From a virus: 29,095 nt of DNA. Both the position numbers and the translations under genes were made by a program. Positions within the stretch are counted from its first letter, which is position 1. Each line of letters opens with the position of its first letter. The stretch spans positions 1 through 29,095 of the IMG/VR virus record IMGVR_UViG_3300025168_000447. One strand, written 5' to 3'. Below the pieces are notes generated by a model. It saw only the letters and a list, made by a program, of their open reading frames with translations. It did no database searches and was not told where the DNA came from. Shown here piece by piece: positions 1,313-27,518 of this stretch.

Positions 1313-1759
1313 TTAACTAGCAGATGCTACAAAGTATTCAACCTGGCATGCAGCTGTATCTGCATCAGCATGTATAGAATCTATATTTGCTAATGTTCCA
1401 GCATCTCCAACTGTAGTGTCGCCATCTTCATGTGCATCCATTACTGTATTACCAAGAATAAAATGATCTTCTGCTTCTAATTTTACAAAGTATTCTGCAT
1501 CTGCTTGCTGCACTCTAAGTGTAACAAAGTTAGATGAGTCTAAATTTGTAATACGTAAGTATTTTACAGTTCCATCTGCAAATTGTCCTGGACCGTTTGC
1601 AGCTGCAAATTGTAAAATTTTAATTTCGGATGTTCCCACATCCATTATTCTGTGATCTACTTCGTCCACAGTTACAGTTTGTACATTTGTTGTACCTCTG
1701 TCTGTGCTACCGTCTCCTAATGAAACAGCTTCAGTTACTGTTATTGTTAGTGTTGCCAT
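1313..1759 (-). CDS. Small beta-rich virion structural protein (fiber or decoration type)
   Basis: The 148 residues alternate short hydrophobic strands with Thr/Asp/Gly-rich turns: MATLTITVTEAV at the start, VKYLRITNLDSSNFVTLRV in the middle, CQVEYFVASAS at the end. There are no charged clusters, signal peptide or membrane segment. This reads as a compact beta-sandwich. I have seen similar small proteins beside tail and head genes of marine phages, but I cannot name a defined family or a position in the virion. It is the last gene of the long - strand block and ends directly against the convergent terminator. Its ATG lies inside the end of the 54-aa gene (29-bp overlap), so the two are probably translated together. 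An uncharacterised head-decoration or tail-fiber accessory protein fits best; the structural role is inferred from composition and operon position. Confidence 0.6.
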   Translation of the reverse strand: MATLTITVTEAVSLGDGSTDRGTTNVQTVTVDEVDHRIMDVGTSEIKILQFAAANGPGQFADGTVKYLRITNLDSSNFVTLRVQQADAEYFVKLEAEDHFILGNTVMDAHEDGDTTVGDAGTLANIDSIHADADTAACQVEYFVASAS

Positions 1760-1895
1760 TGTCTATTATTATAAAAATTTGTATTAATCCTAAAAAAAAT
1801 TGTACTTCATAGTACGGTGCGTATTCTTCTGGTTGGAAGTGCCTCATCCCAACTAAAAATCCTTTTGCCCATTGTATACCAAATGTAAATGTCAT
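1731..1895 (-). CDS. 54-aa hydrophobic small protein coupled to the giant gene
   Basis: This short reading frame starts with ATG at 1895, overlapping the TAA of the giant gene (TAATG), and ends in TGA at 1731-1733. The protein runs MTFTFGIQWAKGFLVGMRHF, then a QPEEYAPYYE segment, then VQFFLGLIQIFIII and an Asn-rich tail. The pattern of a WxKGFLxGxR motif, a short acidic/Tyr turn and an amphipathic hydrophobic strand looks like the tiny proteins often found in crAss-like and other phages of Bacteroidota, whose function is unknown. The hydrophobic segment (residues about 33-44) is short for a membrane span. Exact coupling to the upstream stop, the filled gap and the family-like motif make a real gene likely. 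Its last 29 bases overlap the next gene, so the Asn-rich tail may be a by-product of the overlap. Confidence 0.7.
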   Translation of the reverse strand: MTFTFGIQWAKGFLVGMRHFQPEEYAPYYEVQFFLGLIQIFIIIDNGNTNNNSN

Positions 1896-4800
1896 TAATC
1901 TTCGTCTATAATTTCTTCTGTTAAATATTCGAATGTATAATACGCAGATCCCCCAGGTAAAGCTCTAAACCATTTTTTCTTTAATGGGTCTTTTTGGCTA
2001 TCTTCATACTCTTGCGGATCATCTAAATAAGATATTGTCGCATCTATTGCTTTTGTAAAATCTCCTATAGTTTTTAAAAGAGGAGTTGGATTTCTTAAAA
2101 TATCCATCATAGTTCCTGGATGCAGATAGAACCATATATCTTGCTCTAATCTGAATAATGAATTTGCTAATAATCTATATAACCATGCCCAGAAATCATC
2201 AGTTTCTGCTGCCGCTTTTAGCATTAACATTGTACCATAGATGGCTGCATAAAATTTAATTTCCATTAAATTCTTACGCATGTTATCGTAATCTATAGTT
2301 TCCATATCGCCTTTCATATCTTCTTTAGAAAAGGCATTCCCTAAAGTAACCATATTTCCAATTCCTTTAAGAAGGAATTTAAGACTTCCTTTCGCCCCTA
2401 CAGTTCCGTAAGTTCTCCATCTACCTTTTGTAAAACGATTTAATTGATCATTATAATCTATTTCTGCAAACCTTGTATTAAATCCTTCAAACATCCATGT
2501 TCTAAATATTGTAAAAGCACGTCCATATACAGATTTCTTTAAAAGCATAAATGAATGCGGATCATAGTTACCATGATTTACTTTATTCATTTCAATAGAA
2601 GCATCTCTAAAATTAGTAAATTTATTTATAGTATCTGCATCTAAATCATCTGACCATTCCTCTGCATATTCTGCATACTCATTTTTCCAGTTTCCATTTT
2701 CATCATAAGCATCATATAAAGTTACACCAGGAGCTACTTCTGTGTTTAACATCTTGGCTACAAAAGGTGCAGTTTGATTTATAAACTCTGTACGACGTTG
2801 GATTTCAAACGGACTTAAATTATCTAAAAATTTAAATTCTCGTTTTCTGTCTTTACCATAATGAGCATCAATTTGTTCAAATAAAATTCCGTATTTAGAA
2901 ACTAAATGTGTAAGTTTAGTTGCAGAAACAACAGAACTTCCTGAACTTTTAAGAACCATCCAATAAGCTTGAGATAACTGATCAACAGTAAAATCTTCTT
3001 CACCTGCTGCATGTACAAAATTAGACATTGTACCAAAGCCCATGTTATTTACCCCTGCTACAACATTCCATCCCATACCCTTCATTTGAGTAACTTTAAT
3101 TACACTTTCTATTGCAGCTTCTTTACTGAATTGAGTAACTTGTAATTTTTCATACTCTTCTTCGAGTTTTGCTTTATCTATATTATATTGAGCATCAGTT
3201 AAAGCTCCTTGAGCTCTTCTCTCATCTAAGTTTTTTAATTCTTGTTGAATTTCATTTGCTCTTCTATTTATAATTATACCTTTTTCATCTATATCTTTAG
3301 TAAATCCGTATAATTCAGCATCAATAGCATAATCAACAGCTTCTTGAACATTTTTCAATCCACCTATTACGCTTAAATTAGTTCTCTTATCAGATTTCTT
3401 AATAGGATTACCTGAAGAATCTACTTGTAATTCTCTGGCCTCTCTAAGAGCTCTTTGTAATAATAAAACTCTATCTTCTACCTCTGCTTTGAATTCAAAG
3501 TTTTTAGCCATTGCTGTAAACATCTTCAACACTCTTTCTAAATCATATGATTTTTCTTGAGCCTTCACTCCTTTTATCATTCTAATAGGAACTGTTTTTA
3601 AAGGCTGCCCAGTACTTACATCTCTAGCTCCTTCCGATACAATTGTAGGATCTAGCTGTGCTTTTTTATTTATAGACACATATGAAAGTAATTCTGTAGA
3701 AGAGAAGTATTTCCAAAACGAAGCAAGACCGTCATTTTGTAAATTTTCTACAAATGATCTTCTAGCAGCAGGCCAGAAGTTTTCAGGTAACTGACGCGAT
3801 ACACTTTCAGGAAGAACTTTTGTTAACTCCTTCATTGTTTTTATATAATAATCATAAAACTCATTTAAAACTTTATCATTTTTTATTGTATTAAATGAGG
3901 AGTCATAAAAGTTTAAAGCTTTCTTAGTTACTGCATGGTTTTTTCTAGGCGCAGAAATTAATCTCATGTATCCATATTGTTTAGACCGTGCTTGCCCTTT
4001 ACCATATCTAATATTTAAAGCTATGACTGGACTATTTTCTTGAGTCCATCTTTTAATAGCTTCATCCACTTCTTGCGGACTAGAATCTCTAAGATCTGCT
4101 TTAATAATTTCTAAATTAGCGGCTTCCTCTACTTGATATTGCTCATACTTTTCAAGAGCTTTTTCTACAAGCCTTTCTCTAGTTTCCTGCCCTAGTTCTT
4201 TATCTAAAAACTCTATATACTCTTCTTTACTTTTATAAGAAGAATTTAAAACTTTATCTTGATGCCAGAATCTAATATCAATAGCAAGCTCAATATTATT
4301 TAGCTGTCTATTAAGTTTGATCGCTGCTGCATTTTTAGCTTTAGCTTGAGCATTTCTAGCTGCCGTAGTTTTTGCAGGAGTTTCATCTATTTTTTTAATC
4401 TTTTTATAGTAATCAGCAAAATACTTATTTTTTGCGACTCTATATGAGTCAGAAAACTCATTTACAAAATATCCCGAAAGCTTGCCGTTTTCATCTTTTT
4501 GGAAAAATAAATTAGGATCTCGTTTAAACTCAGGATGATTTTTAATAGTCTCTATTTTACTAGAAATTTCTTCAAATAACTTAGCTACTTGAATATCCTT
4601 AGCTCTACCTGCTAATTTTAATTTTTTATTAATAAGTTTTACTAACGGAGATTTAAATTTAGTTATATCTAAAGATTGATATACAAAAAGATTAGATTCT
4701 TCAGCTATTTCTAGTATATCTTTTTTAGTTACATCCATCTCAGGAATAAGAACACTTATTTCTGCAGTAACATCTTCAATTAATTTATCTAGTAATCTAG

Positions 4801-7800
4801 CTTTAAATCCTGAAGCTCTTTTACTAAAATCTAGTAAAGCTTTATTGAAAACATTAGTTTCTGTTAAATCTTCAGCATTTAAAAATTCATTAGTTACGCT
4901 GTAATTATAAGAGTCTGTAATGTTTATAGCTTCTTGCATTTCTATATCTGTAGGGGCCTCATTGTCTAATACTGTTTTAACCCATCTAAACTGTGCTGTA
5001 GCAATAATTTGAAGTTGCTCTATTGTACGCTTATCTTTTAAACTCTTACGTTGAGTAGCATATCTTCTAATACGCTCTCTAATACGCTGTCCTTCAACTT
5101 CAGTAATATTTTTATTTGTAAGTTTAGTTCTTAAGTTTTTAATACGCTCATTATATAAATCTATAAACTGCTGTATTGTGTCAATTTGTTTTACAATAGG
5201 TATAGAAAGATTTTGTTCAGCATTAAACTTTGCACGCTCTTCATATAATCTAACAGCATTATCTATTTTGTCTTGAGTGTATTTACCTTGAGCAGTTATT
5301 AAATGGGTCATTAAATCAAAACGTTGTAAGAATCCGCCATCTTTTTGAATCACTCCAATAAGTTCATCTGCAGTTACTGTTCCAACTCGGTTAGCCATTT
5401 CAGCAGTTTTCTGTCCTGCAGTTTCTTCTCTGCTAACCACTTCTAATACATTACCTACAGCTGTAGCTAAAGCACTATCTTTTTTAACTTCTACTCCAAT
5501 AACATCTCCTAAAGCTTGTATAAATCTTACAATCGCAACTTTAAATCTTTCCCAAATACTCTTTTTAACTTTTTGATTATTTAAGAATCTCTGCACCCCT
5601 TTATTAGTCATAGCATGAACTAACCATTCCTGGTCATTTTTAAATGCATAATCTAATAATGCGTGCTCCATACTATCAGGATCAATTTCTCCGTTTTTAA
5701 CTTTTTTAGCAAGAAGTTTAATGGAGGCTAATCTTAAAACTTTTGTTGTTTTTGCTAGCTCACTATCTTTATTAGCTAATTCATTAACTAAATATCCGTG
5801 TAAGTATTCATGCAGTACTACTTCTTCAAATGTAAGAGGTTTAGACAAATAGTTGCTATTTAATTTAACAGTACCATCTGTATATTCTCCTCGAATATCA
5901 ATTGTTTCTGTAGAGCCATCTGGATTTGTAATATCAGTTGTTTTAGCTTCTATTACTTTTTGTATTTCAGATCCTACAGTATCAAAATTATCTAAAAGTA
6001 TTCTAGCAAGCATTCTATAGCTTACATCTTCAGTTTCATTTACAACATTTTCAAGTAATTCTTTAGCTCCTGCTCTATCTAAAACATCACCTTCTTTAAA
6101 GTTATATTTACTAGGTTTAGTAGGAGTTGATGTAGGAGAAATCTTTTTAACAGGTATCTGAGGTACTTGCGCAGCTCCTGGGTTAGCAGCTCCTGGCGCT
6201 GTAGGTACAGCATTTTGAGAGAATACAGTTCCACCTTCTTTATTAAGTTGAGGAATACCTTCATACTCAGATATTCTAACCTTATTTGTATTATACCCTT
6301 TTAAAGGGATACGTTTAAATATAATACCACCGTCAATGGTAACATCTCCAGTTTTCTCATATAACTGAACTTTGTTATTTACTTTTCTACCTATTATAGG
6401 TATGTAAGTTAACACTTCATCCTTCTCATACGCATATTTATAATATGGTAAATCGATTTCAGGATTAATAGGTTTTAAAACTAATTGATATAATTGATTT
6501 CTACCATTAAATTTAATTCTATGATTACCTACAGGCTCTTGTAAAAACTGACCTACTGTAAGATCAGCTTCAGTTATTTGAGTTGCATAAAAAGGATTAT
6601 GTTGTAACCATTCTTTTAATGCTTGTGCAGAATTAAAATCTTGGTCATTTAACATTCTTTGTTCTTCCACTCTAAGAGCATCATAAAAACCAATTTCCTG
6701 TAAATAGGCAGATGGCACAAATTTTACAAAATTTCTAGCATTTTGATTACCTCCTGTTGCATATGCAAATTTTACTAAGTCTTCAAATAACTCTCTATGT
6801 CCTTCTATATCTGATTGGTATAAAGCAATAAAATCTTTATGCATCTGGTCCATAACATCTTCTTGTTTAGATGCCGTGTAACTAACAGTATTTGGAACTG
6901 TTAAACTACTTTTAATAATAGGAACTAATCTTTGTATGAATAAATTTCTTTTACCCCAAGCAGTATTTTGTACATTTTGGACTTTTGCAGCTAAGGAAGA
7001 TTCAGATAAGAAAAGCATATCTCTTCTTAACTCTTCTGCATTAATTTCAAAAGCATTTTCAAAAGCTCTAGCATATCCTTTATCTAACATTGCGTAAAAT
7101 AAAGATTCACGGACATTAGAAGAAATATCTTTCTCACCATTCATTTTTTGGAATTCCGTGATCATATCTGAATGCGCTTTAGCATTAAATGGCATTACTT
7201 TACCAAAAGCTTTATACGCTTGCTTAAGTTCATTATATAAAGTTTCAAATTGAGTGTTTTTAAGTGCGTCTGCAACTCCTGCAAGCCCTGATAATTTATC
7301 TTCAAAAATAACATCCATATTACTTAAAGCTCGTTGAGCTTCAAATATAGTACTACCCAATCCTTTTGTTCTAGGCGTCATGATACCTCTTTGAAGTTTT
7401 TTAACTGGATCAGAAGATACTTGTAATTGTCTAAATCCTGCTAAAATAGCTTTTTGAGTTTGATAATAAGTATCATTTTTAGTGTCTGTAAATAAACTTT
7501 TAAATCTTTTAACACTAAAAGTTTGAAACTTACCATTTTCATCTTGTCGTAATTCATCTAAAGACATTGTATAATCTTCTTGAAAATTACCATCTCCTAT
7601 TCGACTATCTAGAATCTGCATAGCAGCATTAAAAGCTCTATTACGTATTTGCTCAAAGCCTAAATATCCACCTTCTGCACCTGAACTAAAATAATCAAAT
7701 TGCTCATTATATATTTCAATAGATTCTTGTCTTAAAAAGTAAGTTAATTGATCTGTATGAATAGAATTTCCATATACATCTTTATACATTGGGGCAAATA

Positions 7801-10800
7801 AAGCAACATCAATAGTTGCATTATTAACACCAGCTGCAGCTAATGTTTGTTTATTAGCATTATCTACTGCAGCATTTTGTATACTACGTAAATTATCTGA
7901 AGAAGTTCTTTTTACTCCATTTTCACTAACTGAAAATCCTTTTCTTGATATATTAGTTAATTCTAATACTCCTTCTAAGGTTTCAAAAAATGTAAACTTA
8001 ATTAGATTTTGATTATAATCAGGATTTATTCCAATATCTCTTCCTTGCACAGCTGCATGTAATGTAGCAGCTAATGAAGCAGGTCCAATAAGTTTTTTAC
8101 CTGTTCTTTGAGATATATTATGGCTAATATTAGTAGTTAGGTATGATGGTGAATCTATTACATTATCTTTCTTTACTAATTTATCAACTTCTGTTGCAGC
8201 AGTTTCAATATCATTATTATCTAGTTTTTCAGTGGCTAAGAAATAATTTTTATTAAACACTAGCTCACGCATTGCATCAAAGTACTTATCTTGTAATTTT
8301 TGTAATGCAGATAAATCAGTTTTCTTTTTAATTTTTCCTTGATCATCTACTACATACATTTTTCTATAAGTATATAAAATATCAATATCAAAGTCACTAC
8401 CCATTTGATCAACCATCTCGTCAGGTATAATAGCAGTGGCTATTGATGTAGATGGTAAAAATCCTACAACTTCTAACGCCATAACAGAAGATCTACCTTG
8501 GCCAGGAATACGATACCCAATCATTTCAAGCAATTCTCTTGGTATAGCATCCACTTGTAAGTATCTTTTGCCATTACTAACTTTAGAATATTTTCTATTA
8601 GTTAAATCAACTTTAACTATTTTACCTTCTGCATTTGTAAATTCAAAATGTGGCTGTATAAGTAATTGTCCTGGTAAAAACTCACCTTCAGAATTTACTC
8701 TAGGCCCTTGTAATCCTATTGTTTCATCAAAAGCATTAAGACTATTAGGATTAATATAAGTTATTACATTACTAACATCATCTTTTCCAAATTCCTCTTT
8801 AAATTCTTTCCAAGTACGTCCTCCTTTAGCTCTAAATCCTGCGCTAGAAGACTGAATGTAACCATATCCAGGCAATTTAACATTAGCAATGTTCTTTCTA
8901 ATTAAAGATAATACTAAAGACTCAATATTAGTACGAGAATGATTAAACATAAGAGGAGATCTAAATATTCTCTCCGCTGTTTCTGCTACTTCTATAACCG
9001 TAAGTTCTTTTATATCTTTTTTAGACCAATTTCTTTGTTGGGCCTCTGCTTTTAAAAACTTAGAAAGTTTAGATGCATTTATATCTACAGCTCTTCCTGT
9101 GTCATCTAGGGTAATACCCATTCTAGAATATAAATCTTGCGCTCCAAGCTTATAAAAATCAGAAACTATTTTTTCTTTATCTATTCTCCACTGTTCTACC
9201 GTTCTATCTTTAGATAGTTTTAAATCTAAAAGATCATCAGCTGCTAATACATCTAATTGAGTACTTTTAGATACTTCTTTTTTATTAACAGGTTTTTCTT
9301 GCTGCCATCCTAAACCATCTCTATCTAAGCTTCGAATAGCATTTCCTTCTACAATATTAGCTTCTAGTTGTTCTGCAGATAAGAATTCTCCAGACCCATC
9401 ATATACCTGAATCGGGTTGATAGCTCCTTTTTTATCTGAAGACTCATGCCCCGCTCTTCTAATTTTTAAGCGTTCCATTACTAAACGTAGATTGTCTATA
9501 TCATGACCTTTTGTTTCTTCTGGCCATAACCATCTTGTAGAGGTTTTTCTAAAGAATTTATTATTACTATCTAATTCAACATTAATATCATTTACAATAT
9601 AAACAGGTTTATCTGTAACAAATACATCTTTTACTGCTCTATATTCTTGATCAGTTAAAAATTGTTTTAATGTATAGTAATTTTCTACATTATTAGGATC
9701 AGCTATTACACTTTCTATTCCCTTTTTAAGTTTGTTATAAATAGTTTGAGGAAGTTTACCGTGTGCAAACTTCATTTCTAAAGCTTCTAATGCAGTACCA
9801 TACTCTTGTCCATCTGTTCTTTCAATTTCTGAACCATTTTTAAATACTTTACTGTCAAACATAGTTATAGTACTAACTTGTTTATCTGTATACTGAGGAG
9901 AAGTTGCAGGAGATAATAAATCTGACCCTCTTTTCTCATAGTTATTTAAAGTTATTTTAATTGTAGCAGGTAAATTGAATTCTCCTTTATTTTCTTTATA
10001 TGCTAAAGCAGGATCTCCTGTAAATAAAATTCTTTGTTCATTATTAGAAATAATATAATTAAGAGCTCTATCAGCTACTAAAGCAGCTATTTTATTTTCT
10101 TCAGATTTAAGGTCTGCATTAGTTTGTTTTGTAGCTCCTTGGAAATATTTATTATTTACATATTTAGACGATATTTTAAGACGATCAAGAGTATCTATAT
10201 TTCTAGCTATTTCTTTTAAAACATCTTCCTTAATAATTTCTTTAATATATTCTTTAACTTGATTTTTATCTAAACCAATTTTAAGAGTTTTACCATCTTC
10301 TTCCCATAGTTCAGCTGCTCTTTCGTTATAAGAGTTTAAATAATCAAAATAATAAAAATAGTTAGCGCCTTCTTCATAAGCCCCTCTATTTACATTTTTT
10401 TCAATTGCTTTTTGTCTACCTTCTGTTTGGTGATAGTAAATCCTATTATATTCTCCCATTGCATATTCTGTAATAGTAGAAAGTATTTTATCTTTAATAT
10501 CTACTACTTCCCCATCTTCTATAACTACTTGACTTAAAGCAGTGTCTCCGTCAATAGTACTCCATTTAGGAGCTTTAAGCATAGGAGTAATGTCTTTATC
10601 AGATAAAGTTAATGGGAAGAAATAGGATGTATTTAAGCCTTGATTAGCAAATAATTCTAAACTACTTGCATGCTGCATAAATTCTCCTTGTTCTTTTCTT
10701 GCTTTTCCTCGTGTTCCAGAATTTAAAAGCCTAGTAGATTCTAACATTACAATATCAAGAGAAAAATCTTTGTTTTCTTCTAGTAATTTTTCACCCCAAG

Positions 10801-13800
10801 TAGAACCTTGAGAAGCATTAAGCGTTAATAAATTTTCTAAAGAATTATAACCTCCTCTTAAATTATCTTTATAGTTAGAGAGTAATCTTTGCATACCAAA
10901 TGCAAGACTGTAAGCATATATAGCTTTACCTCCCTCACCTCTAAAGTTATTTCCAAATATAACCCCATTATAATCCACAGTTAATTTTGCAAGACCTATA
11001 ACACTTCTTTCTTGATTAGGACCTTCAATTGGATTATTAATATAGAATAATCCTCCACTTCCGCTTTCTATTCTTTCATTAACTATATTTTCAGCAGTTT
11101 CTTTATTCTCTGAAGGAACGCTTATTTCTCCTAATTTATATTTAATAGCTTCTTGAATTTCTTCATTACCTAACGAATCAAATATAAACTGCATAAACCC
11201 TCGGCCATTAGGTCTTATTTGTGCTTCCCAGGTACCTTTTCTTCTTACATATGCTGCAAGATTGGTTGCGCTTGAAGAGATATATCTTAAGCCTCCTATA
11301 GGTACTTCCATACCAAGTCGTCTTAAAATACTTTGTAGCTCTCCTAAGAATTTATCAGAGTATATATTATTTTTAGTATCTTTTTTAAGATTTTGAGCTA
11401 TTTTTAATTTAGCCATGTATTCAGCTTTTATTGCTAAAACTTTTTTAGGATCTATTACAAGCTCGTCTTTAACTTCTTTAACTACTTCACTTTGTTTTAA
11501 ATGATTTAACCATTTTTCTTTTACATTAGCTATTGTACCGTAATTATCAGCTGCAATAACTTTTGTTTTAGAAGGACTTTTTGGATCAGATAAAACTTGA
11601 ACAAAATTTAATTTTGTACCTGACATAGCAACTACAAACTTATTTTGAAAATCTAAAGATTGGTTTTTTAATTTCTGTAAGATATTCTTATATACTGGAC
11701 TAGGAGTAGCTAATTCTACTGCAGCAATTTTAGATGATAACCCACCTTTAATATCAGTTAGAATAGATTTAAGAGTATCATAAGCATCTTGATACTTTAT
11801 ACCCATTGGGTACCCTGCCCAGTTTATATTATTAGAATCTGATATAGAAGATAAAAAGAATTTAACTTCAGCAGAAGCTGTCTTTTTTCTATCTGCTCTA
11901 TAGAATTCTATATCATAGCTTTCTTCTGTAAAGTCTGCATCTTTAAGTCCTTCTTCTGTTAATTGCTCATTTAAGAATTCTGCTATTTCTTCTTCAGAAT
12001 ATTCTCTAGACTCAAACCCTGCTTTTGTAGGAACAATATCTAACTCTTTAAGTTTAGCTAATATTAATGCTTCTACGGTAGTTTGACTTCCTTTTCGGTT
12101 AAAATTATCTAAAAGTGTTTGATAAGCTCTAGCTTTTTTAACTCCTTTTCTTTTATAAGTTGCTAAACGTTCTTCTAAATGTCGTTTTAAATTTATAGAT
12201 ACAAAGTCAAAGCTTTTCTTATGATTAACTATAAGGTCTGCATAAAGATGAAATACGCCTTCAATATATTGATCCTGCATTTCTTGACTTAAGTTATCAA
12301 GATCTATAGCATCTTCTTCAAGCTCTTCTTTTAGTTTTAAACTAATTACTTTTTCTTCTTCAGTTTTTTCAACTGTATTTTCAAAATCTATAGAAAAGAA
12401 TTGATCATTACCTTTTACTATAGAATCACCGTCATCTATAGCATTTTCATTTAATATGTTATTAGAAACAAAATCAAGATCTACTAATACAGTAGGCTGA
12501 GTCATATACGTATGCTCTATAGCACCATCTTTATGCTCTATCTTATTTTGCCCATTTATATCTGTTTTAAGATTATCTAATTTAAAACTGTTATAAGAGT
12601 TGTGTTTATTGATAATAGGATTTCTATTAACATCTAAAGCTACATTACCCTTTTTATCAAGTTGTACATCAGAAAACTCTCCAGGCTTATTAATTCTTTT
12701 AGCATCAACGCTTACTAATTTTCTTTTTAAAAGCTCAGTAGCTTTATTAGCTCCATCTTCATAATTTATAGATACTACTTGTTCGATTTTATTATCTACA
12801 AAGTATTGTTTAAGTTCTCCTGTGTATACTCCAGAATCATTTGTTTGTATAGTATTTATATCTTCAAAGAAATAATTAGGTTCATTAGTATAAATAGTTC
12901 TATTATCTACATCAAGAACAATTAATTGATTACGAAGTTCTGTTGGTGTATATACTAATACTTTTCTTTGGCCTTCAATTCGACCAAACTCTTCTTCTTC
13001 ATATTTATAAGAATACGGAGAGGCGTATACATATCTATTTATAAACGAATGGAAAGCTGTTTTTGCTCCATCTCTACCAAAGTCTAATCCTGTAGCGTCT
13101 GAAACAGTTTGATGTGTTTCTATATTATCAGTGACAAATGAAACTGCAGACCCTATTATAGTCTGCGCTTGAGTGTCAGAGATATTATCAGCCCACAATA
13201 CAGCAGGGAAGAAAGTTCCATTTGGAGTAGGAATCATAACAACAACTCTACCGTTGTCTATAAAGAAGTCATTAGATAAAGATTTTTTAGTTTCAACCCC
13301 TTTACTTGAATATATTATACCTGTATTTACAATACCTATTTCCAGATTATTCCAGTCAGGCATAGACTCTTTAACAGGTCTATTTGCAGGGATTAAATTA
13401 TTATTTACAGTTGCAAGATCTCCATTCTCTTCTTCTTCAAACATTTGAAGTACAAGACCGCTACCTTTAAAGATTACATTACTTTCAGCAACCTGATCTT
13501 CATTTTTAGCTAGCACTAAACGTAAGTTCTTAGCTTTCTGTGCCTGCTCTTCTGCGGTAGTTTCTGAATTCTCTCGTTGCACCCATTCAACAGAGTGCAT
13601 TGGAGCAATATCAGTTAAAGCGCCATCTATAACTTGTTGTATTACTATAGGAAGCTTTACTATTTCTTCTTCAGTCATGTTTGCCAATTCTTCAGAAGTA
13701 ATTTTCTTATTAGTATTTGGAGATCTAAGTTCTAATACAACTGAAGACCCTACTTGTAGATTTCTAGTAGTATGTACTGAATCTGCATACTTACCATCTA

Positions 13801-16800
13801 CTGTATTACTTTTACTAAGTTTCTTTTTAACTACTTTGCCATCTGGTAAAGTAACATCTACTTCTTGATACTCTATAGAAACATAGCCTGCAGACTGAGA
13901 AGAAAGTAATTGTTGAGATTTACCCTCTCCGTTGTCTTCAAATACCTCTACAACAGATTTAGGTATAACATTAGAGTTAGCCATATTAAGATCAGAAGAG
14001 TTAATCTCTTGACCTTCATTAGAAATATCACCTTCAAATATAGGAGATAAATGCTGTTCCGCAGAAGTTAAGTGTTTAAATACTTTATCTACTATTGCTT
14101 GATTATATTCTAACTCTATTAAAGGTTCTTGTTTTACATCTGTAATAATATTTTGATCTGCTGTTAGTAAAAAAGGAAGAATAAAGATTTTCTCAACAGG
14201 AATTCCTTGTTCGTCGTACATATATTTATACATAGACTGTTGTCTAGTATGACGAATTTTTTTACTAGTAAACATTCCATTATCTTCATACTTTGTAATC
14301 TGAGTACTAGTAATAGAAGCTTTAAGATCTATTATCCAAGACCTACCATCAGGGAAAGTAAGCATAATATCTGTTGCCCCTGCTATAGTTTTATCTCCTT
14401 TAGTGTTAAAAATTTTACGTTGAGCATCAAACACAGCATCAGGATACGTTGTCATTAAGTTATATATACTTTCTACTACAGTTTCAATGTTTTCAAACTT
14501 TGCAAAGTCTACATCAGCTAATCTATCTTCTCTTTTTAAATAAGGATCTAAAGTATTAAGTATTTTCTGACTAACAACTGCAATTACTTCTTTAGTAGAT
14601 TTCTTTCCAGTCTGTCTAATAGCGTCAGGTAACAACTGAATAGCATTTTCACCAATAAAATCTACTAAATTACCCCATTCTAAATTAAACTCACCTCCTG
14701 TCGGAGCAGATTCTTGAAACGCATTTCTAATAGCTGTAGAAACACGAGTAGCACTTACTTCTCCTGACTCTAAAGCTACAGGATATTCTGATTCTTGAGT
14801 TTCTGTATTTTCTACAGTTTCCCCAACCATATTATTTAGAGCCTGAATTTTATTTAAAATATCTAGCTGATTTGGCTTAGGAGATTCTTTTTTAGGTGAA
14901 GGCGTAGTTGTAGTAGTAGTTTTAGGCTGCACCTGTCCCCCTGGAGATACTACAGGCCCGTCTTCAAATTTTAGTACAGTTCGTCGTCTTGTAATAGCTT
15001 CTCCTACTAAAGGACTTTTCTTTTTATCTGCAGCTAACCTTGTTTCTTCTGCTGCTAATTCTTCAAGCGTAGCAATCTTACCAATTCTATCGATAAGTTC
15101 AGCTTCTTTCTCTGGACTAAGTGTATTTTTTACTACATTAACTGCGGCCTTAGCTTTAGCAGCTGCTTTTTGTGTGAAAGATTGCTTTTTATTATTGTTA
15201 CTTTTTTCTTTAGCTGCTTTTTCTTTTTTATCTTTCTCTGTAGCATCATCCTGAAGCTTTTTACCATCTGCTTTTAACCTTTCAGGAAATTTAATATATA
15301 TATCATAATAAGCACTTGCAGTTTCTCTATTAATTTTAGCTGTGTTGTAACGTGTTTGTGTTTCAATAATCTTAGCATCAAGTTCAGAAGAAGTTTCTAT
15401 TTCACTTACACGTTTTTTAATTTCTTGAATTGTAGTCTCTTTAAAAGTAGCCTCATCTTTTAGTTTAAAATCTAGCGCTTCTTTTCTTTCTTTTAAATGT
15501 TTTTTAGCATTCTTAACTCCATCTTTAACATGATTTAATCTTTCGTTACTTTCTGGAGTAAACAGGTAAGGCTCAGAGCTAAATTTTTCTTGTTCAGATT
15601 TTAACTGTTCTTGTTTATCTTTCAGAGATTTCTCTGCCGCTTCTACTTGCAACTGTAACTCTTGTATAGCGTATAAAGGAGCTAGCTCAGGATTATTGGC
15701 TATATCCTGCATAAGCTGTGTTTTCTCAGCTTTTAATTCATCTAATTCTTGTTTATAAGCTCGTACTCTATTAGCATTTTTATGTTGATTAATTCTAGTG
15801 CTTAATAAAATTTCTAACGCTCCAGGATCTTTAGTTTTAGGATCTTGTAGCAATTCATTAAACATATCTTCAACAACTTTTGCATCTTTTATATATTGAT
15901 CTGCTATTTCTTTATAGTTTTCAGCAACTTCTAAGTTAGCTGCTTCTTCTTCAGACATATTTTTATATCCTTCAAGAATATCCATAAAGTTCTCATACGT
16001 TCCACTATAAGCGCTACCTACTGCGTGTTGGTAAAAAGATTCTTCATTTAAATCATTAAACTTAGCATTATTACCTAATTTAGCTTCTAGTTCTTTAGCA
16101 TTTTCAATAGAAGCTTTTAATTGTTTACGCTGCATAATAGTACTAACAGTACCTACAGGTCCTGCACCAAAAGCTCCTGTTAAACCTTCAGACATACCTT
16201 GGTAGCTACCCATATGATCCACCCATCTTTCATGTGTAGGACGATAGTCTTTTAATCTAATACCTAACTCTTCATCTACTCTGTGTTTAGCTTCTGCTTC
16301 TAAGAAACCAGTGGTAGATTCTTCCATATATTCAGTGGGCATTTCAATCCCTACTCTTTTAAGCCCTTCTTTTAAGAGAGGAGTTTTAGCACTTGTATTT
16401 ACTAATCCTGCACGCCTAGTGTATCCTATATTTCTAAATAAATTTAACTGAGATATAGACTGCCACATAATATTTATTTTACCTCCCCAAACAATATCCT
16501 CAGCTTGTAGATAAGCTTCTTGTCTAGCTTTTTCTTCTGCTTGACTAGGATCCATTCCCTGGTTTACATAGTGCTGTAAAAGTCTAGGATACGATTCTTC
16601 TATATGTTTAACAGCAGATACAGCATGCTCACCATAGTTTAATGCCATTCCAGATAATACTGCACCTGAAACGTTTACAGCTCCCGCTGTTGATGTTGCA
16701 GAAGCACCTAAAGCATTTGCCATTTTACCCATCGCAAGTTTAGACGCCCAAGTACCTGCTTTAAAAAACTGTGAACCTGGAACTAAATATCCAAGAGAAC

Positions 16801-17314
16801 GAATCATTTGATCTCCATTTTGAGCAAACCATTCTGCGCTCATTAAATCAGGTGTTGGAGTAGAAGTATATATAGGATTACTTTCTCGAACTCCTTCTTC
16901 TGCATCTCTTAAGAGTTTAGATAACCAATTATCATAATTAGTTTCTACTCCTTGAAGAGTTTTAAGATGATGCTCAAAATCTAATACATAAGCAAAAGGC
17001 TCAACAGCTGCAGCAACTATACCTACTCCACCTCGTTTAAGAGTTCTCCAAAGTTGTTGTCCTCCTGATTGGTGTGCAGCAAGCTGTTTTTGTATGTCCA
17101 TCCCAGGTACATAATCTATACCTGCTTTTTCAAATTCATCAAACTTTTCTTTACTTAAAATACCAAAGGTACCTTCGTACCTTTGAGCTGCTTCTAATGC
17201 CTCTGAAGAGGGATCTCCGAGCAGAAATTTTGTGGGTTCTATTTGTTGAAATTGATCGTCGTATTGAGTTGCAGCTACTGTATTTCGCTTACCACCCTTT
17301 TTAGGCTGTAACAT
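1895..17314 (-). CDS. Giant virion protein: nuclease-like, RNA polymerase and zincin domains (5139 aa)
   Basis: One uninterrupted frame encodes 5139 residues. Approximate domain order: residues 1-480, helical with Ala/Gly-rich hydrophobic stretches (170-235 and 385-400) that may interact with membrane; 500-680, coiled coil; 690-810, Lys/Ala-rich then Thr/Pro-rich linkers; 875-1110, PD-(D/E)XK nuclease-like (D982, D996, K998); about 1110-3690, RNA polymerase module with DFDID at 2974-2978; 3700-3737, Pro/Ala linker; 3740-3985, zincin-like with HEYLH at 3835-3839; 3985-4700, mostly helical; about 5020-5035, a hydrophobic helix near the C-terminus. In crAss-like phages a polymerase of this type is carried in the virion and ejected to transcribe early genes; phi14:2 gp66 is the studied example, at about 2180 residues, so this chain is more than twice as long. 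The start lies 3 nt after the previous stop, with A/T-rich upstream sequence. Domain boundaries are by eye. Whether the chain stays intact or is cut during maturation is unknown. Confidence 0.9.
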   Translation of the reverse strand: MLQPKKGGKRNTVAATQYDDQFQQIEPTKFLLGDPSSEALEAAQRYEGTFGILSKEKFDEFEKAGIDYVPGMDIQKQLAAHQSGGQQLWRTLKRGGVGIVAAAVEPFAYVLDFEHHLKTLQGVETNYDNWLSKLLRDAEEGVRESNPIYTSTPTPDLMSAEWFAQNGDQMIRSLGYLVPGSQFFKAGTWASKLAMGKMANALGASATSTAGAVNVSGAVLSGMALNYGEHAVSAVKHIEESYPRLLQHYVNQGMDPSQAEEKARQEAYLQAEDIVWGGKINIMWQSISQLNLFRNIGYTRRAGLVNTSAKTPLLKEGLKRVGIEMPTEYMEESTTGFLEAEAKHRVDEELGIRLKDYRPTHERWVDHMGSYQGMSEGLTGAFGAGPVGTVSTIMQRKQLKASIENAKELEAKLGNNAKFNDLNEESFYQHAVGSAYSGTYENFMDILEGYKNMSEEEAANLEVAENYKEIADQYIKDAKVVEDMFNELLQDPKTKDPGALEILLSTRINQHKNANRVRAYKQELDELKAEKTQLMQDIANNPELAPLYAIQELQLQVEAAEKSLKDKQEQLKSEQEKFSSEPYLFTPESNERLNHVKDGVKNAKKHLKERKEALDFKLKDEATFKETTIQEIKKRVSEIETSSELDAKIIETQTRYNTAKINRETASAYYDIYIKFPERLKADGKKLQDDATEKDKKEKAAKEKSNNNKKQSFTQKAAAKAKAAVNVVKNTLSPEKEAELIDRIGKIATLEELAAEETRLAADKKKSPLVGEAITRRRTVLKFEDGPVVSPGGQVQPKTTTTTTPSPKKESPKPNQLDILNKIQALNNMVGETVENTETQESEYPVALESGEVSATRVSTAIRNAFQESAPTGGEFNLEWGNLVDFIGENAIQLLPDAIRQTGKKSTKEVIAVVSQKILNTLDPYLKREDRLADVDFAKFENIETVVESIYNLMTTYPDAVFDAQRKIFNTKGDKTIAGATDIMLTFPDGRSWIIDLKASITSTQITKYEDNGMFTSKKIRHTRQQSMYKYMYDEQGIPVEKIFILPFLLTADQNIITDVKQEPLIELEYNQAIVDKVFKHLTSAEQHLSPIFEGDISNEGQEINSSDLNMANSNVIPKSVVEVFEDNGEGKSQQLLSSQSAGYVSIEYQEVDVTLPDGKVVKKKLSKSNTVDGKYADSVHTTRNLQVGSSVVLELRSPNTNKKITSEELANMTEEEIVKLPIVIQQVIDGALTDIAPMHSVEWVQRENSETTAEEQAQKAKNLRLVLAKNEDQVAESNVIFKGSGLVLQMFEEEENGDLATVNNNLIPANRPVKESMPDWNNLEIGIVNTGIIYSSKGVETKKSLSNDFFIDNGRVVVMIPTPNGTFFPAVLWADNISDTQAQTIIGSAVSFVTDNIETHQTVSDATGLDFGRDGAKTAFHSFINRYVYASPYSYKYEEEEFGRIEGQRKVLVYTPTELRNQLIVLDVDNRTIYTNEPNYFFEDINTIQTNDSGVYTGELKQYFVDNKIEQVVSINYEDGANKATELLKRKLVSVDAKRINKPGEFSDVQLDKKGNVALDVNRNPIINKHNSYNSFKLDNLKTDINGQNKIEHKDGAIEHTYMTQPTVLVDLDFVSNNILNENAIDDGDSIVKGNDQFFSIDFENTVEKTEEEKVISLKLKEELEEDAIDLDNLSQEMQDQYIEGVFHLYADLIVNHKKSFDFVSINLKRHLEERLATYKRKGVKKARAYQTLLDNFNRKGSQTTVEALILAKLKELDIVPTKAGFESREYSEEEIAEFLNEQLTEEGLKDADFTEESYDIEFYRADRKKTASAEVKFFLSSISDSNNINWAGYPMGIKYQDAYDTLKSILTDIKGGLSSKIAAVELATPSPVYKNILQKLKNQSLDFQNKFVVAMSGTKLNFVQVLSDPKSPSKTKVIAADNYGTIANVKEKWLNHLKQSEVVKEVKDELVIDPKKVLAIKAEYMAKLKIAQNLKKDTKNNIYSDKFLGELQSILRRLGMEVPIGGLRYISSSATNLAAYVRRKGTWEAQIRPNGRGFMQFIFDSLGNEEIQEAIKYKLGEISVPSENKETAENIVNERIESGSGGLFYINNPIEGPNQERSVIGLAKLTVDYNGVIFGNNFRGEGGKAIYAYSLAFGMQRLLSNYKDNLRGGYNSLENLLTLNASQGSTWGEKLLEENKDFSLDIVMLESTRLLNSGTRGKARKEQGEFMQHASSLELFANQGLNTSYFFPLTLSDKDITPMLKAPKWSTIDGDTALSQVVIEDGEVVDIKDKILSTITEYAMGEYNRIYYHQTEGRQKAIEKNVNRGAYEEGANYFYYFDYLNSYNERAAELWEEDGKTLKIGLDKNQVKEYIKEIIKEDVLKEIARNIDTLDRLKISSKYVNNKYFQGATKQTNADLKSEENKIAALVADRALNYIISNNEQRILFTGDPALAYKENKGEFNLPATIKITLNNYEKRGSDLLSPATSPQYTDKQVSTITMFDSKVFKNGSEIERTDGQEYGTALEALEMKFAHGKLPQTIYNKLKKGIESVIADPNNVENYYTLKQFLTDQEYRAVKDVFVTDKPVYIVNDINVELDSNNKFFRKTSTRWLWPEETKGHDIDNLRLVMERLKIRRAGHESSDKKGAINPIQVYDGSGEFLSAEQLEANIVEGNAIRSLDRDGLGWQQEKPVNKKEVSKSTQLDVLAADDLLDLKLSKDRTVEQWRIDKEKIVSDFYKLGAQDLYSRMGITLDDTGRAVDINASKLSKFLKAEAQQRNWSKKDIKELTVIEVAETAERIFRSPLMFNHSRTNIESLVLSLIRKNIANVKLPGYGYIQSSSAGFRAKGGRTWKEFKEEFGKDDVSNVITYINPNSLNAFDETIGLQGPRVNSEGEFLPGQLLIQPHFEFTNAEGKIVKVDLTNRKYSKVSNGKRYLQVDAIPRELLEMIGYRIPGQGRSSVMALEVVGFLPSTSIATAIIPDEMVDQMGSDFDIDILYTYRKMYVVDDQGKIKKKTDLSALQKLQDKYFDAMRELVFNKNYFLATEKLDNNDIETAATEVDKLVKKDNVIDSPSYLTTNISHNISQRTGKKLIGPASLAATLHAAVQGRDIGINPDYNQNLIKFTFFETLEGVLELTNISRKGFSVSENGVKRTSSDNLRSIQNAAVDNANKQTLAAAGVNNATIDVALFAPMYKDVYGNSIHTDQLTYFLRQESIEIYNEQFDYFSSGAEGGYLGFEQIRNRAFNAAMQILDSRIGDGNFQEDYTMSLDELRQDENGKFQTFSVKRFKSLFTDTKNDTYYQTQKAILAGFRQLQVSSDPVKKLQRGIMTPRTKGLGSTIFEAQRALSNMDVIFEDKLSGLAGVADALKNTQFETLYNELKQAYKAFGKVMPFNAKAHSDMITEFQKMNGEKDISSNVRESLFYAMLDKGYARAFENAFEINAEELRRDMLFLSESSLAAKVQNVQNTAWGKRNLFIQRLVPIIKSSLTVPNTVSYTASKQEDVMDQMHKDFIALYQSDIEGHRELFEDLVKFAYATGGNQNARNFVKFVPSAYLQEIGFYDALRVEEQRMLNDQDFNSAQALKEWLQHNPFYATQITEADLTVGQFLQEPVGNHRIKFNGRNQLYQLVLKPINPEIDLPYYKYAYEKDEVLTYIPIIGRKVNNKVQLYEKTGDVTIDGGIIFKRIPLKGYNTNKVRISEYEGIPQLNKEGGTVFSQNAVPTAPGAANPGAAQVPQIPVKKISPTSTPTKPSKYNFKEGDVLDRAGAKELLENVVNETEDVSYRMLARILLDNFDTVGSEIQKVIEAKTTDITNPDGSTETIDIRGEYTDGTVKLNSNYLSKPLTFEEVVLHEYLHGYLVNELANKDSELAKTTKVLRLASIKLLAKKVKNGEIDPDSMEHALLDYAFKNDQEWLVHAMTNKGVQRFLNNQKVKKSIWERFKVAIVRFIQALGDVIGVEVKKDSALATAVGNVLEVVSREETAGQKTAEMANRVGTVTADELIGVIQKDGGFLQRFDLMTHLITAQGKYTQDKIDNAVRLYEERAKFNAEQNLSIPIVKQIDTIQQFIDLYNERIKNLRTKLTNKNITEVEGQRIRERIRRYATQRKSLKDKRTIEQLQIIATAQFRWVKTVLDNEAPTDIEMQEAINITDSYNYSVTNEFLNAEDLTETNVFNKALLDFSKRASGFKARLLDKLIEDVTAEISVLIPEMDVTKKDILEIAEESNLFVYQSLDITKFKSPLVKLINKKLKLAGRAKDIQVAKLFEEISSKIETIKNHPEFKRDPNLFFQKDENGKLSGYFVNEFSDSYRVAKNKYFADYYKKIKKIDETPAKTTAARNAQAKAKNAAAIKLNRQLNNIELAIDIRFWHQDKVLNSSYKSKEEYIEFLDKELGQETRERLVEKALEKYEQYQVEEAANLEIIKADLRDSSPQEVDEAIKRWTQENSPVIALNIRYGKGQARSKQYGYMRLISAPRKNHAVTKKALNFYDSSFNTIKNDKVLNEFYDYYIKTMKELTKVLPESVSRQLPENFWPAARRSFVENLQNDGLASFWKYFSSTELLSYVSINKKAQLDPTIVSEGARDVSTGQPLKTVPIRMIKGVKAQEKSYDLERVLKMFTAMAKNFEFKAEVEDRVLLLQRALREARELQVDSSGNPIKKSDKRTNLSVIGGLKNVQEAVDYAIDAELYGFTKDIDEKGIIINRRANEIQQELKNLDERRAQGALTDAQYNIDKAKLEEEYEKLQVTQFSKEAAIESVIKVTQMKGMGWNVVAGVNNMGFGTMSNFVHAAGEEDFTVDQLSQAYWMVLKSSGSSVVSATKLTHLVSKYGILFEQIDAHYGKDRKREFKFLDNLSPFEIQRRTEFINQTAPFVAKMLNTEVAPGVTLYDAYDENGNWKNEYAEYAEEWSDDLDADTINKFTNFRDASIEMNKVNHGNYDPHSFMLLKKSVYGRAFTIFRTWMFEGFNTRFAEIDYNDQLNRFTKGRWRTYGTVGAKGSLKFLLKGIGNMVTLGNAFSKEDMKGDMETIDYDNMRKNLMEIKFYAAIYGTMLMLKAAAETDDFWAWLYRLLANSLFRLEQDIWFYLHPGTMMDILRNPTPLLKTIGDFTKAIDATISYLDDPQEYEDSQKDPLKKKWFRALPGGSAYYTFEYLTEEIIDED
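5360..6097 (-). other. Zincin-like metallopeptidase domain within the giant protein
   Basis: HEYLH at residues 3835-3839 (bases 5798-5812) follows a hydrophobic helix start (FEEVVL) and gives zinc ligands H3835 and H3839 and general base E3836. E3896, in the segment DQEWLVHAMTNKGVQRFL, is the likely third ligand. The helix SIWERFKVAIVRFIQAL and a DSALATAV segment follow. The layout HEXXH, then (E/Q)-E-[WF]-[LI]-[VA]..[AM], a short strand, then SlwxRf, matches the metallopeptidase-like domain of large phage polyvalent proteins. A Pro/Ala linker (3700-3737) lies just upstream. Confidence 0.8.
8015..8917 (-). other. Catalytic core of the double-psi-barrel RNA polymerase
   Basis: DFDID at residues 2974-2978 (bases 8381-8395) supplies three aspartates (D2974, D2976, D2978) for Mg2+ binding, corresponding to DFDGD of cellular beta' subunits and DYDGD of QDE-1-type polymerases. 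About 40 residues upstream is GYRIPGQGRSS (from residue 2933), then a strand pair (VMALEVVGFLP, IIPDEMVDQMG) that matches the barrel preceding the loop in beta'-like enzymes. Downstream, about residues 3065-3095, is QRTGKKLIGPASLAA, a basic Gly-rich element. Ile in place of the usual Gly of the triad agrees with the phi14:2 gp66 type as I remember it. T7/N4-type polymerases have no such motif. Confidence 0.85.
14000..14690 (-). other. PD-(D/E)XK nuclease-like domain within the giant protein
   Basis: Residues about 875-1110 show the core pattern of the RecB/Cas4-type branch: GATDIML with D982, a 14-residue step through a short beta turn, then WIIDLKAS with D996 and K998, then RQQSMYKYMYDE with Q1026 and Y1029, followed by a hydrophobic strand (KIFILPFLL). 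The order D...DxK...QxxxY is the known signature of this superfamily. An upstream acidic residue could not be placed with confidence. It lies immediately before the RNA polymerase module. Possible roles are DNA cleavage or end binding after ejection; activity is an inference. Confidence 0.75.
15275..15817 (-). other. Coiled-coil region of the giant protein
   Basis: Residues about 500-680 contain long heptad-like runs rich in Glu, Lys, Gln and Leu (for example ELDELKAEKTQLMQDI and KSLKDKQEQLKSEQEKF) with few prolines. They separate the hydrophobic N-terminal part from the nuclease-like domain. It is followed by a Lys/Ala-rich linker and a Thr/Pro-rich linker (residues about 690-810). These could let the chain extend for passage through the tail. 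Confidence 0.6.
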
Positions 17315-22242: not shown

Positions 22243-25200
22243 TTATCTTTTAGAAATTCTAAAAAAGGTTTTTACATAATGTAAAGCTATTTTATAATTA
22301 GCGAGAAGATTACTAACACCACGTTTTAATGTAATTTTTATATACGTATCCCTAAGCCTTTCTCCAGAACTATTTCTAGGAACAGGTAGCCTACTTATAT
22401 TTTCTCTTATATCAAAGTCACTATCTTCTACTATATTAAATCCGTCACCAAATGTTTCTGTTACTAGTTCTGATGGAGAAGATACTCTAAAACTAGCTTC
22501 ACTAAAATTATCTCCTAAATTTGTATAAATAGTATCGTTATTATTTTTACTTACAAACCATTCTATATGATCAAATGCTTTTGGGTATAATGAATTTTTA
22601 TTTACTATAAACTCTATTTTGTGCTCGCCAGGCACCTTAAACCATTTTGTTATTGCCCCTATATTATGCTGAAAAATTTCTCCTCTGTGCTCAAGGTTAG
22701 AATCAATAGATAATAATCTATCTGGTAGACTCATATACATTGGTGTATAATAAGTGTATATAGAAGTAAACTTATTTATGTTTTCACTAAAAGCTATAGT
22801 AGTACCATAATGCGGTGTTTCAGTATAATTTACTGCGTCAGTACGTAAGCTAAATAAAACTTCACTATTTAAATAATCATATCCTAACACTACATCTTTA
22901 TTCATTAATGTTGTGTCAGATAAAAGTCCACTAGTATAACTTTGAGGCCTATACATAGCAGCAAACCAAGATTTAACACCGTGAGTATCTGATATACTTT
23001 CTAAACCATTAGCTCTAAAAGCGTATGCTTTTTTTGCATTAGAATCAAACCAATAAATACCTACAGGAGAGGATACTACAGATAAAAAATTACTGCATCC
23101 TATATTAGTTGATATATAATTAACATCTTGAATTACATCTCCAGTACCTAATACAATTGATGCTCCTGCTTCATCTAATACGGTTGACACAGGGTTAATA
23201 GAAAACTTTCCAAATGCACTTTTTTGTAAAAAATACATAATATCATCTTTAAGAACTAATTTTTCTAAAGAACCGTATAAACCCTCAACATCTGCGTAAT
23301 TTTCTAGTTTAAAATTCCTCCAGTTATCTACACTTTGATTGTTTGATTTTACATCTGAGTACACTACTCTTGTATCTATAGTTTCATTATCTACAAAATT
23401 TAAAGGTTTTGGTAAAAATGTTTCTATATTATTTATATTACTATAAACAGGTTCTAATTCGAATGTATTTAATTCTTGCTCTGTATTAAAACCCCAATCA
23501 GTTTTATTTGCAAAATGCCATCCTCCTCTAAGAGTAGTGTTAACAGTAGTTTCAACTGGAAAAGCATAAGATTTACTATGTTCAATTGTACTTCCTGTAC
23601 TACCAGAGTCTCCCAAACCACTAGAATATTTTCTTACTTTTTCTAAATCGTATAAAGTAACATATGTATCTCCTCCCCAAACCTCTTGAGATTCTCCTAA
23701 AGTATCTACAGTAGCATAATGGCCTGTAGAAATATAAATATTACTAGCTCTGGCTGCATAAGTATTTCCACCATATTGAGTTGACCCTCCACCAAAAAGA
23801 AGATCGTTAGAGGCAGTACTATGAAGTTCTGTTTTTACAACACCTAAAAGTTTTGCATCCTTCCCAACTCTATCTTGTTGAAGAGGAGAATAAGGAAGCC
23901 ATTCGTCCCAAGGAATAGTAGCATTAGGATCAAAATATTCTGTATCTACTCCTAAAGCATCTTGAAAAGGATTTATTACTACTAATAAAGATTCTTCACC
24001 AATACTTCTAATTTGTATATTAGAAGCACTTACGACGTCAAAAGCCTTATTCTTAAATCCTGTTATTGAATATTCAGCTGAACTATTATTAAAATTAAAA
24101 AACCCCTCATTATCAAAGTGTGCACTTAAATCTATGTTTAAATCTGCTCCTCTACCAAATTTACTAGAGTGTAATATCTCATAAGTTCTTCCAAAATAAT
24201 CTTTAGTGTTTGCAAGTTTATGCGCAGTTAAAACAGTTGCACTAGTTGTATGGCCTTCTGAGCCACTGTCATTTGTCCCTGTAAAATCAGCGTTAGTTTC
24301 GCCTACAAAAGCTCCTCCTATTTTTAAATAATTACAAGATCCTGAAGGATAGTCATCATTAAAATTAAAGTCAGGAGAATCTATTGTCATTTGAAAATTA
24401 TATCTATCCCCCTGTGCTCCACTATCGCCCCCTTTCATATAGTAAAGATTTTGCGGACCAAACCCTGAAAATATTTCCCCATGCATAGAAAATCTTTCTA
24501 GAAAATTAATTATACCAGACCCTAAAACAGTTTTATCGTTTTGTTTTCTTTCTACTCTAACTATACTATATCCACTAACTTGAGATTTTAATTCGTGAGG
24601 TAAGTCTACTGTAAATTCTAGTCCTAATACATATAAGTCACTTGAATAATGAGATCCAAATTCAGGATCGTCATTATCGTATGAACTTTCTACGTTATCA
24701 TAATTTCCTGCATTATCTGGATCATAGTAGTTCATAAATGCATAAGCATCTGGCTCATTCTCATTCCAGTTATAATTTGTTCCTCCATGATTTGTTTGAA
24801 AATTTTGGGATAGAGTATAATTTGGTAAATATCCTGCGTCTGAGCCTGGGTATCTATCTATATCGTGATAATCTGGAAATCTTATATCATCAATCCAATT
24901 TACAAATCCAGGCTTACCTTTTAAATCGTATAAAACAATTCCAAATCTATATATTTCATCTCTTTGATAACCTACATAGTTCATAACATTTTGAGGAGAT
25001 TTATAATCTCCTTTTACTGCACCAACTGTATCACCACAACCAGTGCCAGGAGCAAATACTCCAGTAACAAATGGTGCTTGATCAGGTACACTTGAAAATT
25101 CATTTCCGTTTAATTTTCTTTTTTTAAATTTATAGCTAACATTTACTCCTGAACCACCTAAATCTCTTCCACTTTCATTAAATTTATAACTTAAACCTGC

Positions 25201-26619: not shown

Positions 26620-27518
26620 TATCTATTAAAGTTTTTTCTAATTTCAGGTGAACCTAACGATCTAAAAAATGTTTCATGTTGATTTATTTTTGGAAGTAAT
26701 CGCATTGTTTGATTTTTAATAGCTTCTATTTGATCAAGATTTGGCATTTTAGCTTTATTACCTGCTTGCCCTACATACCATGCCCACTCTTGTTCTGAAT
26801 GTTGGAATACATCAGGTCTAAGTTCTCCTTTTCTCCAAGCAATATAATCTATCTTCATTGTAAGATATTTTTTTATTGCTAATTGATAACTTGTTTCTTC
26901 TGGTATTAAAGGTAATCCTTCTTCATCTGTAGGAATAGCTAAGTATGCCATACATACTTTTCCTTCTTTTTCAGATAGTGTTATATGATTATTATTTAAA
27001 TCAAACGTAATTGGGTTAAAGCTATTGTCTACAGCTCCTGTTGTATTAAAAGACATTAAACCTGAATAATCTAAATTTAAATTATCCATTTCTTCTTCAT
27101 CTCTTTGCTCATAGCCCACAGTACCATCTGTATTTGTTATTTGAACTAGAGTACCCCAGTTTCTTTCTTGCACATTTTCAGCTAGCGTTGTATAACCTTC
27201 TATACCACAACAAGCGCCATCAAGTAAATGATGAAAAGTATCTCCTGAATATTCAGCGGGCATACCATTTACAGCCACTTGTTCTAAACTATGAAAGTCA
27301 CAAGGCAAATGTGCTCTATAATTTTTTATATCTAAATCAGGATTATCTTTATGTCCTGTTACTTTTCGTACATATTGTCTAGGGTGCCCTATTAAATTAA
27401 GAGCTTCTTCTGTCCACAACATGCAATCCATCCAAGGTAATTCAAACTGATAACCGTTGTCTGCATATATTTGCTCCATGATTGCATTTAGTGATATATA
27501 TTTTCCGTTTAGTGCCAT
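26619..27518 (-). CDS. Tail ring / tubular-type protein of crAss-like phages, 299 aa
   Basis: The N-terminus (YISLNAIMEQIYADNGYQFE, then WMDCMLWTEEALNLIG) followed by VTGHKDNPDLDIKNYRAHLP and CDFHSLEQVAVNG matches the pattern of the ring or tail-accessory protein that precedes the muzzle gene in crAss-like phages: an N-terminal helix with an acidic-aromatic patch, then a beta strand with LPCDFH. The C-terminal part is helical (LAIKKYLTMKIDYIAWRKGE, then QHSEQEWAWYVGQAGNKAKM) and ends basic. By analogy with P22 gp4 and phicrAss001 ring proteins it would form a ring between portal and nozzle. No enzymatic residues were recognised. The ATG at 27518 follows the 97-aa gene by 15 nt, with an A/T-rich upstream (AATATAATAGC) and no Shine-Dalgarno sequence. 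Its TAA overlaps the muzzle ATG. The exact ring (R1, R2 or R3) cannot be assigned by eye. Confidence 0.8.
   Translation of the reverse strand: MALNGKYISLNAIMEQIYADNGYQFELPWMDCMLWTEEALNLIGHPRQYVRKVTGHKDNPDLDIKNYRAHLPCDFHSLEQVAVNGMPAEYSGDTFHHLLDGACCGIEGYTTLAENVQERNWGTLVQITNTDGTVGYEQRDEEEMDNLNLDYSGLMSFNTTGAVDNSFNPITFDLNNNHITLSEKEGKVCMAYLAIPTDEEGLPLIPEETSYQLAIKKYLTMKIDYIAWRKGELRPDVFQHSEQEWAWYVGQAGNKAKMPNLDQIEAIKNQTMRLLPKINQHETFFRSLGSPEIRKNFNR

Follow-up and report, generated by a model that had tools for sequence, protein, structure and literature searches.

The window analysed here is a virus record of 29,095 bases and is probably a fragment of its genome. On the minus strand it carries a giant gene (1895..17314) that holds the crassvirus transcription/cargo block in one frame, as judged from the ORF and its translation, the coding composition and three blocks of homology. 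The frame runs uninterrupted over 5139 aa from an ATG start to a TAA end, and the plus strand across 1895-17314 contains many stops. Hence, the single frame proposed in the sequence-only reading is real, though it lies on the minus strand. At the base composition of the window, 5139 stop-free codons would occur by chance with a probability of about 10^-147, and a chance origin is excluded. GC3 lies between 0.11 and 0.19, the codon-position composition is even from end to end and no frame join was seen.

We assign the phage to the crassviruses (crAss-like phages), as the sequence-only reading had done, because muzzle and ring-1 proteins are encoded upstream of the giant gene. Tail ring protein 1 (26619..27518, minus strand) matched PF24228 at E 3.3e-62. 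The muzzle protein (22243..26619, minus strand) matched PF25731 at E 5.8e-164 and aligns with crass phages at 24-26% identity, covering as much as 86% of the protein (tblastn). The order ring 1, muzzle, 975-aa gene, 653-aa gene and giant gene is that of gp43-gp47 in PhicrAss001; the 975-aa and 653-aa genes showed no sequence match to PhicrAss001 gp45/gp46. In the 975-aa gene (19291-22218, minus strand), which occupies the position of the cargo protein gp45 in crass phages, the stretch RYVESSDGLKMINPNSSATGLYGQLYS at residues ~125-160 resembles a lysozyme/transglycosylase motif by eye; the gene had no Pfam match. Just past the cargo block, a uracil-DNA glycosylase gene (557-1237; PF03167, E 1.1e-18) lies on the opposite (plus) strand.

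Iterated HMM searches, together with blastp for the second and third regions, divided the giant protein into three modules. Residues 1-400 led to PhicrAss001 gp47 and phi14:2 gp67, residues 2001-3650 to phi14:2 gp66 and PhicrAss001 gp50, and residues 4251-5139 to phi14:2 gp65 and PhicrAss001 gp49. We therefore distinguish an N module (residues 1 to ~1634, 12413..17314, conserved part 73-383), an RNA polymerase module (residues ~1635-3690, 6245..12412, core 2601-3094) and a C module (residues ~4031-5139, 1895..5224, conserved part 4652-5131), all on the minus strand. PDB searches with the N and C modules gave nothing meaningful, and Pfam searches with bare pieces of the window gave nothing useful. 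Tiles over 751-1150 and 3751-4150 found no relatives as single queries, and domain-sized profiles were required to recover the relatives of these regions.

To map the module borders, four split relatives were concatenated and aligned with single-chain relatives (eight sequences in all). The first gene border falls at window residue 1619-1634 in all four split relatives and the second at residue 4006-4031 in three of them; in phi14:2 the second border corresponds to residue 3747, near the start of the zincin domain and ahead of its HExxH. The DxDxD and HExxH columns coincide in 8/8 sequences, and the summed length of phi14:2 gp67, gp66 and gp65 is 5398 aa versus 5139 aa in the window chain. We therefore interpret the giant gene as the entire crassvirus transcription/cargo block joined into one frame.

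Residues ~1635-3690 are predicted to form a crass-type two-barrel virion RNA polymerase like phi14:2 gp66. The aspartates of the catalytic motif DFDID (residues 2974-2978, 8381..8395, minus strand), from which this type of polymerase had first been proposed, are invariant in our alignments A1 and A4. When gp66 was left out and the polymerase profile drew solely on the window and viral contigs, it matched a single PDB chain, 6VR4, at E 1.3e-51. An initial match to 6VR4 at E 4.7e-146 came from alignment A1 and was set aside as circular because A1 included gp66. From PhicrAss001 (PMC10172136) and the phi14:2 annotations, we infer that the polymerase is packaged in the virion. In cr108_1 the polymerase frame (2967 aa, L005:19725-31315) stops exactly inside DxDxD and the next gene (798 aa) continues it, which suggests an intron or a similar interruption at the catalytic motif.

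Within the N module, residues 941-1077 (14084..14494, minus strand) are assigned to a RecB-type PD-(D/E)XK nuclease-like domain and thus to a putative nuclease. An HMM built from relatives, with the window left out, matched residues 941-1052 at E 6.5e-8. D982, D996 and K998, the residues originally assigned to this fold, are the only invariant columns among 23 sequences. Q1025 and Y1029 are nearly invariant, and the window displays the RecB-type pattern D...DxK plus QxxxY. Ahead of the first aspartate, nearly all relatives have a glutamate at the column of window residue Q965. The AF2 model (pLDDT 75) has an alpha-beta-beta-beta-alpha-beta core topology, so that structure prediction returned the expected nuclease fold. 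The best Foldseek matches of the model were RecE (E 1.2e-4), Cas4-like and AddAB exonucleases, and VIA-align aligned it with AddA (Z 10.3, rmsd 3.7, 148 aligned). Pfam PDDEXK_1 was matched by seven relatives. For some crass phages, PDDEXK domains had already been noted in the large transcription proteins (Yutin et al. 2021, PMC7886860). The domain resides in the N protein of PhicrAss001, cr128_1, DAC15, the window and L044, and in the C protein of cr108_1 and a large group of contigs; judged from this distribution, it wanders among the proteins of the crass block.

Between the polymerase and the C module, residues 3744-3975 (5390..6085, minus strand) are classified as a zincin domain and a putative metallopeptidase. 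The motif HEYLH (residues 3835-3839, 5798..5812, minus strand) and E3896 (5627-5629, minus strand), the candidate for the third ligand, had suggested a zincin from the start. In alignment A2 (24 zincin sequences), invariance is confined to the columns of H3835, E3836, H3839 and E3896, and the domain is very divergent outside its motif. SprT-like was matched by 11 members of the set. The AF2 model is of middling confidence (pLDDT 69). Its best VIA-align rows were zincins, with Z 5-6.9 below the guide value of 8 and rmsd 4.3-5.8, and Foldseek returned no match at E 0.001. For these reasons, the assignment rests mainly on sequence profiles. All the motif residues, including DFDID, lie at the positions originally claimed, and the invariant columns of the nuclease and zincin alignments together with the match of the gp66-free profile to 6VR4 indicate that they are more than chance occurrences.

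Against the PDB, the zincin profile matched the internal virion protein 9SFN at 2.5e-13, the virion RNA polymerase 11FW at 7.4e-8 and the ejection protein gp48 (8VB2) at 1.1e-7, with HExxH aligned in these matches. Going by the matching name, we equate 8VB2 with gp48 of PhiM1, whose tetrameric form is described in PMC11440229; a keyword search of this ejectosome paper found no mention of a metallopeptidase. Since 11FW was not matched by the crass polymerase profiles, it appears to be a polymerase of another kind. The profile also matches the internal virion proteins of phikF77 and Kantovirus. In these Autographiviridae-type podophages, a homologous zincin with aligned HExxH was observed in phikF77 gp41 (L093:2298-6311) and Kantovirus gp03 (L094:2385-6179). 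Within the crass phages the domain has already been annotated: cr11_1 gp65 is listed as 'RNAP associated protein fused to zincin protease' and Rudgehvirus carries a 'ZnMc_tr' entry. Three relatives (L024, L045 and L046) showed two zincin matches in the block, one preceding the RNA polymerase and the other following it or lying in the C protein. As unrelated podophages have the same domain in their internal virion and ejection proteins, and another virion RNA polymerase has it as well, the zincin is most likely a peptidase that would act at entry.

A more far-reaching version of this idea, which we put forward tentatively and at well below even odds, is that the zincin represents an active family of entry peptidases, not recognised as such, that travels on several ejected proteins of unrelated origin: the giant proteins of crass phages, internal virion proteins of the phiKMV type and a virion RNA polymerase of a different kind. 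The single-chain crass form would then couple envelope-stage proteolysis, DNA entry and first transcription in one molecule. Conversely, the nuclease-like and zincin domains could be relics or structural modules without catalysis, leaving the polymerase as the sole enzyme; Q965 of the window, at a column with glutamate in nearly all relatives, and the high divergence of the zincin beyond its motif would fit such a loss. We regard this as unlikely, given that D, D, K and HExxH...E are the sole invariant columns over very divergent sequences. Invariance of only the catalytic columns amid divergence is the usual sign of selection for catalysis.

To see how often the block is encoded as one chain, we surveyed 80 related viral-contig loci obtained by an alignment-based scan of viral contigs; single-protein scans of these contigs with the RNAP core or the C-terminus had found nothing. 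Six sampled genomes including the window encode N, RNAP, zincin and C in one frame of 4799 to at least 6446 aa. The five further single chains measure at least 5114 aa (L017), 5005 aa (L020), 4799 aa (L026), at least 6446 aa (L032) and 6255 aa (L044), and the last one also contains the nuclease in the same order as the window. Elsewhere the block is divided as N|RNAP-Z|C, N-RNAP-Z|C, N|RNAP-Z-C or N|RNAP|Z-C, where Z is the zincin and each bar a gene border; loci were truncated at 10 kb or where a contig ended, and some fusion states may be under-called. On the RNAP tree, the single-chain label requires six changes, of which well-supported branches force at least five, and it clusters no more than shuffled labels do; the tree was built by a quick method with a midpoint root, and long branches unite the window with L091. 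Because the single chains are scattered over this tree, we consider the fusion state of the crassvirus block to be evolutionarily labile.

The comparison across crass-like relatives thus upholds the domain order that had been read from the window: the profiles confirm nuclease-like domain, two-barrel RNA polymerase and zincin within one chain, and the order N-RNAP-zincin-C is the same whether it is encoded as one, two or three genes. The exceptional size first ascribed to the protein does not hold, with six sampled genomes encoding single chains of up to at least 6446 aa and the literature giving up to ~6000 aa for the RNA polymerase gene in crass phages (review PMC10136315). Virion RNA polymerases fused to large proteins are likewise known from crass-like and N4-related phages (PMC10770324). 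Neither the size nor the fusion of the 5139-aa chain is new, and since single chains recur among environmental relatives, it exemplifies a known kind well and is not a new machine.

Our preferred reading, to which we give a probability of roughly 0.82, is that the giant gene encodes a whole-block fusion of an N protein with a nuclease-like domain, a virion RNA polymerase, a zincin and a C protein, which would act as an ejected machine. Mass spectrometry placed gp47, gp49 and gp50 of PhicrAss001 among the cargo of the virion, and it has been proposed that they are extruded through the tail before the DNA in a partly unfolded state (PMC10172136); the phi14:2 gp65-gp67 records carry MS/MS support notes. 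The earlier proposal of a virion protein is supported by this homology, from which we infer virion location and ejection of the 5139-aa chain. By analogy with these relatives, the fused chain would be packed in the capsid near the portal, leave in a partly unfolded form by way of portal and tail before the DNA does, and refold in the host, where its polymerase would begin early transcription as the DNA arrives. The zincin, which has counterparts in internal virion and ejection proteins from unrelated podophages, would most likely serve as a peptidase at entry. One chain would fix equal stoichiometry and bring the parts in together; functionally, it is probably equivalent to three co-ejected subunits.

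Two elements of the sequence-only reading fit this picture poorly. First, hydrophobic N- and C-terminal parts were thought to frame the chain and to cross the envelope. The best 19-residue hydropathy averages are 1.41 in the N-terminal part (from residue 95) and 1.02 in the C-terminal part (from 5016); both are below usual membrane-helix levels and below the 1.64 reached inside the RNAP core (from 2945). In addition, the channel of PhicrAss001 is ascribed to the candidates gp45 and gp46 (PMC10172136), whose positional counterparts here are separate upstream genes. Secondly, the chain was suggested to process itself. In its explicit form, this means a polyprotein that the zincin cuts near the module borders (~1630 and ~4030) into the subunits that are encoded separately in relatives. 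Related phages do make separate chains, and the zincin lies near a module border, with the second gene border on either side of it depending on the relative. Self-processing is nevertheless disfavoured, and the polyprotein quite improbable, because the domain is retained in relatives with three genes (L013, L015, L031 and phi14:2), in which no fused junction needs cutting, and also occurs in other podophages, on internal virion and ejection proteins that are not fused.

An assembly or frameshift artefact that joined separate genes, which the sequence-only reading had named as a possible flaw, might be suspected in a metagenomic fragment whose relatives often use two or three genes for the block, but it is ruled out for practical purposes by a coding signature that stays even over both module borders without any sign of a join and by the same block in one frame on five further contigs.

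Under the whole-block fusion, two points are of interest: the fusion state recurs, and the zincin connects crass cargo with other proteins that are ejected. Fusion of the crassvirus cargo block can evidently be complete without a change of order. As the same line-up occurs as one, two or three genes and the single chains are scattered, it allows a plain test of whether the RNA polymerase subunits, once ejected, function as one covalent unit. Crass cargo has the zincin in common with internal virion proteins and ejection proteins from other podophages, which points to a shared step of genome entry.

Among known systems, gp67-gp66-gp65 of Cellulophaga phage phi14:2 (gp66 is the virion RNA polymerase 6VR4) comprise the same three proteins in the same order as the window chain, with the RNAP core and a zincin ahead of the C protein. 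In contrast to the window, they are three genes (1797+2180+1421 aa) with the zincin at the start of gp65; in gp67, the nuclease profile did not detect a PD-(D/E)XK domain. PhicrAss001 gp47, gp50 and gp49 are homologous to the N, RNAP and C modules, and the N protein likewise has the nuclease-like domain, but the three genes are distributed over both strands and the HExxH lies in gp47 instead of following the RNAP. Gp32 of Flavobacterium phage Fpv3 (4287 aa), compared together with gp33, combines DYDID and HEVIH in the same order in one chain, whereas the C module is on a separate gene. The giant RNAP proteins of Intestiviridae (cr11_1 gp66 with 4388 aa, Rudgehvirus) share the fusion of RNAP and C module, and a zincin is already annotated in their blocks; unlike in the window, the N protein with the zincin is a separate gene ahead of the RNAP. 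The internal virion proteins of phikF77 and Kantovirus, PhiM1 gp48 (8VB2) and 11FW carry a homologous zincin with HExxH and the third glutamate aligned, while the phikF77, Kantovirus and PhiM1 proteins are devoid of a crass RNA polymerase. Finally, Thermus phage P23-45 gp96 (5002 aa, PMC10770324), in which a tape measure protein and a virion RNAP are fused, is also a giant virion protein with a two-barrel RNAP, but it is a tape-measure fusion of a long-tailed phage with the RNAP in N-terminal position.
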